Source: Pseudomonadales bacterium
Lineage (GTDB): Bacteria > Pseudomonadota > Gammaproteobacteria > Pseudomonadales > Azotimanducaceae
Length of the DNA stretch: 64,000 bases
Assembly (NCBI GenBank): GCA_022822135.1
Contig: JAJECH010000001.1
Coordinates: forward strand, 1 to 64,000
Reading direction: 5' to 3'
Shown: in pieces, positions 34,705-38,579 of the stretch
How positions within the stretch are numbered: the stretch's first letter is position 1
How the letters are laid out: each line of letters begins with the position of its first letter
The notes under the pieces: model-generated
The model's database searches: none
What the model saw: the letters and a program-made list of their open reading frames with translations, nothing else
Told to the model about the DNA's origin: nothing
Made by a program: the position numbers and the translations under genes

Positions 34705-36075
34705 TCAGTCAGACGTACTCTTTCCCTGTAGCAGATAGGGTCGAAACCAAGGTACCATCCAGCTTGTGGTATCGGGGTAATCGGGTAAATCGTCTGAGAA
34801 CGTGCCGTCGAGAGTTTCCAGTGATCTCCTAAGATCACCCATAACTGCTTTGCCGTAGAGTCGGTGCCATTGCGACTCGATGCTTGCGAGCTGAAACGGA
34901 TATGCGTCACGCGACAATCGGGTCTTCTGAGTCGGATAAACCATTCGAGTACCGTCGCTGGGTTTCCCTGGTTCGATCGCGATGTACAAGTGGCGCTCGT
35001 GTAAAGACTTTCCATTTCCGGTTATTGGCTGAAATTCTCTTGCAGCTTTCAAACTCAATCCTTCGTCCGGAAGGTATTGGAAAAACATGGCCGTCAGTCC
35101 GAGTCTGCCTAGTCTGGCAGCCTCGTAATCCAGTACGAATTGAGTCAGCGTTTGGCTGAGTAAGGCAGGTAGCGAGAGTGAGTGATTCCGTATGTCGGTT
35201 TGGCGCACGACTACCGGCCATTCAGCGCCTCGACTAGGAACTCGTGGCGGTCCATCTTCGGCTGGAAGGTACGTTCCGCCGGTAAGTGATTCATCCGCAG
35301 GACCGTAACCAGTGACGTAGTGCGGTAATGCAAGCTCGAACTCGCTCACCAGTGTTTCTAAACAGGACGTCAACTTCTCATAGGTGTTTTCATCACGCTT
35401 TGACCAAAGAGATTCCACACGTTTTATTCGACGCATGCCGATCTGGCGCATGGATTCGCCTTGCTCAGTCAACTCGAATGTGGTTTTTCTATTGTGGGCA
35501 TCCTTCTGTAGTTTGAGCCATCCTATCTCAACACAATTGCGCAAGACCACACGCGCTGTTCTCGTTGCGAGAATCGCTCGCCTTTCGAATTCCTTTTGCG
35601 TAATTCCCTGTCGTGGCACCACTCGGAGCACATTGGACAGGACCTCAAGTCGAGGCATACCATGCCGAGAGACGCTGCTTTCGTACTCACGTGTGAATTC
35701 GGTTAAAGCTCGCGTCAGCAGTACCGGAAGTGGCGTCTTTTTGTGCTTAGATAAAGGCGGCGGTTCGTCCATGAGTAGTGTGGACGCATATGCAAGGAAT
35801 CTTCCAAAGTTCTTCGCCTGTTCTTCGTTGCAGCGAAAACAGCTACTTGCGGGCTGACCATCTGACGGTTTACACGACTTCGCGCCGACTCGTTTCGCGA
35901 TGAAGTCAACTGTCAACGAATCAATGTGATCGTGAAGCGATTGATTGAACTTAAATGCGAGCTCGACATGTTTACCGTTGGTAATGAGTCGACTTCGGCG
36001 GCGCTTTGCTGAACTCGGGTAGGTTGCGAGAGCCTCATCTAGTCGTTCAACCCATGCTGACGATTTTTCAGACAA
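34705..36075 (-). CDS. Tandem MarR-like winged-helix protein
   Basis: 456 residues. After an N-terminal domain (about 1-110) with a CFRC pair come two related halves: one from LPVLLTRALTEFTREYE (about 116-250) and one from LPALLSQTLTQFVLDYE (about 303-430). Each has a helix-turn-helix-like core, a wing and a closing helix ending in an LPxY motif, so the protein looks like a MarR dimer built into one chain. The first half keeps a good recognition helix (RTARVVLRNCVEIGWL, TTFELTEQGE); the second is more diverged. Probably a DNA-binding regulator; target unknown. The small membrane protein gene follows it. Confidence 0.7.
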   Translation of the reverse strand: MSEKSSAWVERLDEALATYPSSAKRRRSRLITNGKHVELAFKFNQSLHDHIDSLTVDFIAKRVGAKSCKPSDGQPASSCFRCNEEQAKNFGRFLAYASTLLMDEPPPLSKHKKTPLPVLLTRALTEFTREYESSVSRHGMPRLEVLSNVLRVVPRQGITQKEFERRAILATRTARVVLRNCVEIGWLKLQKDAHNRKTTFELTEQGESMRQIGMRRIKRVESLWSKRDENTYEKLTSCLETLVSEFELALPHYVTGYGPADESLTGGTYLPAEDGPPRVPSRGAEWPVVVRQTDIRNHSLSLPALLSQTLTQFVLDYEAARLGRLGLTAMFFQYLPDEGLSLKAAREFQPITGNGKSLHERHLYIAIEPGKPSDGTRMVYPTQKTRLSRDAYPFQLASIESQWHRLYGKAVMGDLRRSLETLDGTFSDDLPDYPDTTSWMVPWFRPYLLQGKSTSD

Positions 36076-36565
36076 CGTACAAATCTCAAAGTCCGTTTCG
36101 GTTTTTTTGGACTCTTGATAGTCTACTGATTGATGTATGTCATGGGACTACCCGCGCTTGGATGGTGGGAGCGAGATTGTTGAATGCCCTTGGTCCAAGC
36201 TCTTATACGCACGTTGGGTGCCGCATGACCAAATTGCGGAATAGGACTGTCTCAGTCTTATGTCGAGAATCAGCGACCCATGAAAGGTTCGTGCCTCTCC
36301 GAACTGCTCAAGCCGTTCCAGTGTCGCATCGTTCGCTCCGTCTCCTTGGAAGGTTAGCTACCGCTTGATTTGTTCAAGTGCATGAACTTGCGACATGCTA
36401 AATTTCAGATGAAAAGAGCCAGTTCGCTCAGGTTCTCGGTTGCGGACTCATTGTGTTCTCCCAAGTTTATCTGCGAGTAGCGATTAAAGAGTTGCTCTTG
36501 CTCATCCTACGTAAGTGATTTCGATTAGTCGAAGCGAGGCGACGGAAATGAGACTCTTGGCAGAG
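36076..36565. other. 490-base stretch without a convincing gene
   Basis: A plus-strand frame (36006-36368) is open for 120 codons but overlaps the start of the MarR-like gene and has no recognisable protein pattern, so it is not annotated. The stretch must hold the MarR-like gene's promoter. No repeats or RNA genes were recognised before the inverted repeat at 36576. Confidence 0.4.
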
Positions 36566-36594
36566 TTGCAAGGTTGTACTTCCATACGCATAAT
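36566..36594 (+). promoter_or_regulatory. Probable sigma-70 promoter of the 277-residue protein
   Basis: TTGCAA (36566-36571), 17 bases, then CATAAT (36589-36594) fits a sigma-70 promoter with four of six and five of six consensus bases. Transcription would start at about 36600, next to the ATG at 36601, which would make a leaderless or nearly leaderless mRNA. Confidence 0.45.
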
Positions 36595-36610
36595 TAGGGT
36601 ATGGAAGTAC
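36576..36610. promoter_or_regulatory. Perfect 12-bp inverted repeat across promoter and start codon
   Basis: GTACTTCCATAC (36576-36587) and GTATGGAAGTAC (36599-36610) are perfect inverse copies with an 11-base spacer. The spacer contains the -10 box, and the right arm contains the ATG of the following gene. As DNA this is a good operator for a dimeric repressor; as RNA the right arm alone could not pair unless transcription starts upstream. Confidence 0.7.
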
Positions 36611-37434
36611 TAGAGTCGCGTGAGAAGCGATACGAGCACTGCGAGGTGCCATTAGTGGCATCCACCTCCATGGACTGGTTCCTGTCCAAAGAAGGGAGTG
36701 AAAAGGCGATTCAATCACGTCGTCTTCACGTTAGAGATATGTTGGGTCTTGCGGGAAATGTACACCTGACACGTCATTCGCTCGGACGATACGGTTCATA
36801 CCAACTTGAGGCACCGTCGGTCCTGATGTGTCTTCTCACGGACCTCCGTTGGCACGGCGCTTATACGGCTACGGTTGGAAACTCGTTCGCGGCCGCTGGA
36901 TTGCCTGATTTCGTTTCGTCCAAACCGTTCGCGGAATTGACAGAAACGACGACCGAAGCAGTCCGGACGAGTATGAACGAATTGGCCGTCGGACTGACAC
37001 TGCCGATGGCTGTGAACAGGACAATCTGCGGACTTGGCGGCGACGAGCACTTTCAACGTGTCGCGATGGACTACAGCGGAGTTGTACGTAGCGTGGTGGA
37101 CGCGTTACCGAGTGTGGAGCGTTACACCGGTCAAGTTGTTTGGATTGATGGTCGCGACGCATTAGTGTCGCTTGAGGTCGAGGGGGAGAATGACGAGGAA
37201 ACGCGGATGGTCGACGCGGATTACCTAGCGAACATGGGTATCGAGACAGACGGGCAACCACTCGTGGTGATCGACCAACAATGGTCTCCTGATGCTGGAA
37301 GAATCTCGTACTATCAGCCGGCGGTAGTCGTTAGCCATGAGGATCCCAAAGAATTAGAAAGATTGGAAAGATTGCTTCGCGAAGCAGAGTCGCCACCTCC
37401 TCGCAAACGCGACAAAGTCGCTAACGCGGAGTAA
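36601..37434 (+). CDS. Unknown 277-residue protein
   Basis: No family recognised. Residues 1-150 are mixed alpha/beta with no membrane segment. Residues about 175-245 look like a small beta-rich domain (YTGQVVWIDGRDALVSLEVE through SYYQPAVVV). The C terminus is highly charged and ends in a basic tail (PPPRKRDKVANAE). There is no signal peptide. The start ATG lies inside the inverted repeat at 36576-36610; in-frame ATGs at 36670 and 36739 are alternatives without ribosome binding sites. Convergent with the MBL gene, with 25 bases between the two stops. Confidence 0.6.
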   Translation: MEVLESREKRYEHCEVPLVASTSMDWFLSKEGSEKAIQSRRLHVRDMLGLAGNVHLTRHSLGRYGSYQLEAPSVLMCLLTDLRWHGAYTATVGNSFAAAGLPDFVSSKPFAELTETTTEAVRTSMNELAVGLTLPMAVNRTICGLGGDEHFQRVAMDYSGVVRSVVDALPSVERYTGQVVWIDGRDALVSLEVEGENDEETRMVDADYLANMGIETDGQPLVVIDQQWSPDAGRISYYQPAVVVSHEDPKELERLERLLREAESPPPRKRDKVANAE

Positions 37435-37459
37435 CGCCACCCACCGGTCTACCGCCAAG

Positions 37460-38521
37460 TCACAAGCGCGTACAGAAACCGTAGCGTCGTCGAAAGTCAC
37501 CCGCTGGATCTTTGCCTATAACGGTAGATCCTGCCCTCGAGAGCCGTACGCGAATATCGCCGAAACAAGGACCTTGGCCAAGTAGTGGATTCCTCATTAG
37601 GACCGGATCTGAGGCGAAGGCATCACGGCATGCGCGAGCATAGGATGTGCAGTAGAGTCGCCCGCCCTCGTTAGCGTCACAAGTACGTGCTATCGTCTTG
37701 AGGACATTCTCGTGAGGGTGATCCTTTCCGTTCGGTCCGGCGGAGACAATGGCATTGCCGTTTATATATTGATTCATCCAGTCCGGCCAGTTGTGCGCCG
37801 AACCATGGTGCGGCACAACAATGGTGTCGTTGTCGATCGAGAGTTCGGGATATTGTTCGGAGAGGCTTGCTGCGAACCTGAGCAAGGCAGGTGTGGCGTC
37901 GCCTGGTAAGAGAGCGTGTCCAGAAGGCGCAGCGGCGTTGTTGAGGTAACGGAACAGTAGGATCAAGCTTGTAGTGTTGCCGGGATTGGTCTCTCTACGG
38001 TGGCTGATGAGTTGGTGGCTTGTATTCGTGCTCGATGGCGGAGCGAGAATGGTCACTTCCCAGTGGTCGGTTCGGGCCACGTACGGTGGCGGCTGCACTT
38101 GATCTTCTGGGAAATCGTTTACGGACAAGGCATGAATATTCATGCCGTTTTCATGGGCGAAAATCGCAGCACGATTGAGGTAATCGTAGGGACCGAGGTT
38201 GACAGGTCCGGTTGCTGGGTAGAAGAGTCGGTTGACGGTAATGTCACGCTCTACACACTCGCGGAGAATGAGTTCAAGTCCTTTGGTGTGGTCGCTGTGG
38301 GCATGCGTGGCGACGACGAAGCGCACACGTGAGGTCTTGGTTTCGTCGAGGAGCGCGGCGAAGGAAGTGATGTCCTTCGTGCCCCAGTCGACTATGCCGA
38401 TGGTCGCGTCATCAAATACGAAGGCGCACGCATTGCCATGGTGAGGCAGGTGGAATACCCGGAGTTCGACTTCAGTCGTCGGAACGCCACCTTCTACCGG
38501 ACTATACCCGACTTGGGGCAC
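37460..38521 (-). CDS. Stand-alone ComEC-like MBL-fold hydrolase
   Basis: Metallo-beta-lactamase fold, 353 residues, starting at GTG. Metal-binding residues are in THAHSDH (72-78), Asp208 in LLPGDAT, and PHHGS at 237-241. The sequence around LLPGDAT and VPHHGSAHNW matches the C-terminal MBL domain of the DNA-uptake protein ComEC/Rec2, but the ComEC membrane part is absent and there is no signal peptide. It is probably a nuclease or phosphodiesterase. It starts 58 bases after the acyl-CoA dehydrogenase stop on the same strand, so may be co-transcribed, and is convergent with the unknown 277-residue gene. Confidence 0.78.
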   Translation of the reverse strand: MPQVGYSPVEGGVPTTEVELRVFHLPHHGNACAFVFDDATIGIVDWGTKDITSFAALLDETKTSRVRFVVATHAHSDHTKGLELILRECVERDITVNRLFYPATGPVNLGPYDYLNRAAIFAHENGMNIHALSVNDFPEDQVQPPPYVARTDHWEVTILAPPSSTNTSHQLISHRRETNPGNTTSLILLFRYLNNAAAPSGHALLPGDATPALLRFAASLSEQYPELSIDNDTIVVPHHGSAHNWPDWMNQYINGNAIVSAGPNGKDHPHENVLKTIARTCDANEGGRLYCTSYARACRDAFASDPVLMRNPLLGQGPCFGDIRVRLSRAGSTVIGKDPAGDFRRRYGFCTRL

Positions 38522-38579
38522 GTCGATTGGCTAGTACGAGTTTAGAAGGCGGTCTGCAGCCCGAACCGTCATCTAGCTT

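Follow-up and report, generated by a model that had tools for sequence, protein, structure and literature searches.

Promoter palindromes are already known, and the switch proposed here would be ordinary in kind. In Mycobacterium tuberculosis, the operator of the TetR-family regulator Rv3160c carries 12- and 8-bp inverted repeats over the -10 region (PMC7810876). Its long repeats begin 29 bp upstream and involve the -10, where the repressor has been proposed to obstruct RNA polymerase (PMC7810876). In the cI/cro region of phage PY54, an operator lies near the promoters of genes with leaderless mRNAs (PMC4488713), a situation that the palindrome described here would resemble if its gene were leaderless. 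The present palindrome occupies positions 36576-36610 of the 64-kb stretch of DNA analysed (the window) and is a putative operator with no recognisable regulator nearby, whereas the Rv3160c repressor gene is part of the operon and its binding has been shown. The PY54 repressors are likewise encoded alongside their operator (PMC4488713), unlike here, and a leaderless start of the 277-aa gene at this locus is only putative. The reading we favour, with a probability of roughly 0.6, is that the palindrome is a promoter-blocking operator for a homodimeric repressor of this strain-specific 277-aa gene, and that translation more likely begins at a downstream GTG (36655) than within the repeat.

The palindrome (assigned to neither strand) reads GTACTTCCATAC GCATAATTAGG GTATGGAAGTAC, in which a left arm at 36576-36587 and a right arm at 36599-36610, of 12 bp each and 100% complementary, enclose the 11-nt spacer GCATAATTAGG. 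The perfect arms and spacer reported by the first-pass annotation were thus confirmed. Each arm also has a weak symmetry of its own (GTA-N6-TAC), of uncertain significance. No other perfect inverted repeat in the window combined arms of 12 bp or longer with a spacer of at most 30 nt. The arm length is by itself unremarkable, because a first-order Markov model of the window predicted 0.25 such repeats per 64 kb; it is the position that makes the repeat significant, and for this the evidence is good but not conclusive.

For the position, the reference set was 423 gene starts (region -80 to +60) from 624 kb of sequence of this genome, with dinucleotide shuffles as the control. Perfect repeats whose arms reached 12 bp or more were counted three times near these starts, representing two distinct repeats since one was counted from both strands, compared with 0.07 in the shuffles. 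Only the repeat at 36576-36610 spanned the start codon of the longest frame (1 observed, 0.03 in shuffles). By the gene-start shuffles, dyad symmetry at 36576-36610 exceeded chance for such a position. The repeat was picked post hoc, and the excess is therefore read as good, not conclusive, evidence.

That the palindrome is a functionless product of chance is the strongest of the alternatives, yet we regard it as unlikely. A quarter of such a repeat is expected anywhere in 64 kb, the choice was post hoc, and conservation had no orthologues on which it could be compared. Against this, the expectation of about 0.03 over a start codon applies to all 423 genes, equivalent to about ten windows of sequence, and the repeat sits on the sequence that best resembles a promoter in this region.

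The arm pair was present as a single copy in the genome, and no copies of the palindrome at up to three mismatches were detected in 97 relatives; a search for the same palindrome elsewhere, proposed earlier, was thus negative. A local regulator would be expected to have a single genomic site. The idea of a regulon spread across the genome was rejected: allowing one mismatch, the arm had 12 copies, no excess over the reversed control, which gave 20. Elsewhere in the genome, a 15-bp perfect inverted repeat, AAACGTATTTTACAT, with a 12-nt spacer (L065:8889-8930) lies directly 5′ of the gene for a 379-aa ATP-binding protein, divergent from a GST-like gene, and is probably another operator of the same genome. 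Similar AT-rich repeats were observed ahead of gene starts in L064 and L071.

The promoter-like sequence consists of a -35-like hexamer, TTGCAA (36566-36571, + strand), and a -10-like hexamer, CATAAT (36589-36594, + strand), both consensus matches, the latter located in the palindrome spacer 17 bp past the former. This pair (36566-36594) was the sole sigma-70-like match on the + strand in 36000-36600 and the best of the intergenic region, although the 2.7-kb region as a whole showed no enrichment of promoter-like matches relative to its shuffles (2 versus 1.6). By consensus match only, the palindrome overlaps the core promoter, and the perfect repeat is centred on the -10 box. From the position of the two hexamers, transcription is predicted to start near 36601, which would place the arms at about -26 to -15 and -3 to +9, flanking the -10 box. 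The arm centres are 23 bp apart, about two helical turns, on one face of the DNA. Half-sites so spaced are a usual layout for an operator that excludes polymerase.

A homodimeric repressor would bind the two half-sites flanking the -10 box and, once bound, would keep RNA polymerase off the 277-aa gene's promoter. No dedicated regulator was recognisable on the accessory block that carries the gene, and in 36076-36600 no small regulator gene was coding-like or matched a family, leaving as candidate repressors the 277-aa protein itself (autorepression) or an unlinked factor. Of the off-switch put forward by the first-pass annotation, an operator over the -10 retains good support from position and statistics, with binding and repression as its predicted consequences. 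The accompanying suggestion of a protein that has to stay silent until it receives a signal is conjectural.

The choice of start codon bears on this model. An in-frame TAG at 36595-36597 makes the ATG at 36601-36603, inside the right arm, the earliest possible start. This ATG has no usable Shine-Dalgarno sequence, and the -10 box about 7 nt ahead of it gives a geometry that fits a leaderless mRNA; the rival GTG at 36655 has a Shine-Dalgarno-like GAGGTG (36643-36648, + strand) 6 nt before it. Starting at this GTG (codon 19) would yield a 259-aa protein (36655-37434, + strand). The pairing energy of GAGGTG with the 16S tail was -7.2 kcal mol-1, 1.6% of internal start codons pair at least this strongly, in 9.9% of genes the best early start does so, and the spacing is that at which Shine-Dalgarno motifs peak genome-wide. 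Codons 1-18 of the 277-aa reading scored intermediate between coding and non-coding sequence.

Leaderless genes have been surveyed in gamma-proteobacteria and were found in 15 of 239 genomes, where they made up a mean of 4.5% of genes (PMC3160421). In the present genome, which judging by its gene content is probably gamma-proteobacterial, no clear -10 peak adjoining start codons was detected. From these sequence features, the GTG at 36655 is the favoured start, with the ATG at 36601 a serious competitor. Use of the GTG would give an mRNA leader of about 54 nt and leave the palindrome clear of the start codon. The earlier statement that the repeat covers both the -10 box and the ATG is correct for CATAAT and for the ATG at 36601, but that this ATG is used is doubtful, as is the proposed leaderless transcript.

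Alternatively, the repeat could work in RNA, where a 12-bp stem in a transcript from upstream would sequester the region of the ATG at 36601 and dampen translation. We consider this quite improbable. The strand folds at -43.5 kcal mol-1 (z -4.3), largely through the palindrome arms, but any perfect repeat folds, so that the z-score adds nothing independent. No further + strand promoter-like site was present in 36000-36600 to supply such a transcript, and a start near 36601 would leave the left arm untranscribed. The stem would not cover the GTG at 36655, if that is the start, and there was no Rfam match.

Control by the MarR-like protein encoded at 34705-36075 (- strand) would preserve the promoter operator with a different repressor, and is very unlikely. 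The label itself holds: the family profile matched MarR structures (E 1.2e-7), and the model (pLDDT 79.5) predicted a single chain carrying two winged-helix-like domains. MarR proteins ranked highest among its fold matches, although none of the matches passed E 0.001. The gene is also adjacent and divergent. It is, however, a core gene kept vertically in congeners that have neither block nor palindrome, and its presumed recognition helix is near-identical there (TRTARVVLRNCVEI vs TRTARVVVRHCVDL), for which reasons it is an unlikely partner; operator and regulator did not co-occur in relatives. No arm-like site was found at the gene's own promoter. Identity with JetA (Wadjet) was rejected, the match being weak and explicable by the winged helix. 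Proteins of about 450 aa with two MarR-like winged-helix domains per chain, a natural pseudo-dimer, form a protein family that occurs throughout the taxonomic family in differing gene contexts, and of which the member at 34705-36075 lacks a Pfam match. In G016 and G001 (L030:8842-10209 and L043:7647-8935) the gene is broken by stops or frame breaks, and may be dispensable or misassembled.

A terminator was dismissed because the repeat lacks a trailing T run, and a repeated or mobile element because the palindrome is single copy.

The gene under the candidate operator is an orphan. The longest reading (36601-37434, + strand) has coding-like codon use, with the other frames negative, and its 277-aa product had no family or profile match. 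No credible orthologue was found in 98 relatives, 369 genomes of the class and 398 of the phylum, GTDB contigs, viral contigs, phages or plasmids, so that the candidate operator has no phylogenetic footprint, a point against it. One match, in G044 (E 4e-4), was rejected, being broken by stops and overlapping an unrelated 556-aa frame on the same strand. Single-sequence structure prediction gave a pLDDT of 34.

The 277-aa gene, a convergent gene for an MBL-fold protein and a stretch of about 500 bp that looks non-coding make up an accessory block of about 2.5 kb (approximately 36080-38578, neither strand) that is missing from congeners. In five congeners without the block, the MarR-like and acyl-CoA dehydrogenase genes are about 90-106 bp apart, compared with 2.5 kb here, and three of the five keep the Lhr helicase and small membrane protein genes in the order of the window. 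A short frame in the non-coding part (36137-36244) looks protein-like on visual inspection and may be what is left of a gene.

The MBL-fold protein (37460-38521, - strand) has HxHxDH and PHHGS motifs, the latter ComEC-like, and weak profile matches to ComEC-like and defence-associated MBL families. Its gene is unique to this genome among the relatives, in a block inserted beside a core locus; no close relative was found in the genomes, phages, plasmids and viral contigs searched, and the relatives found in genome contigs were generic. Both motifs are shared with the defence-associated or ComEC-like proteins LmuA, RTasMBL, Avs1a and 6A-MBL. Unlike these, the protein scored far under the NCBIfam curated cut-offs, recognisable partner genes of those systems are absent, and the 277-aa protein matched none. 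There is only a slight chance that the two genes form an undescribed accessory system, possibly defensive, held off via the palindrome bound by the 277-aa protein itself.

The block with the orphan gene and its MBL neighbour is the part most deserving another look. If the operator is not real, the repeat is one more promoter palindrome. If it is, an orphan gene acquired recently would already be under tight local control, and its trigger would be findable through the protein that binds a single 35-bp site.
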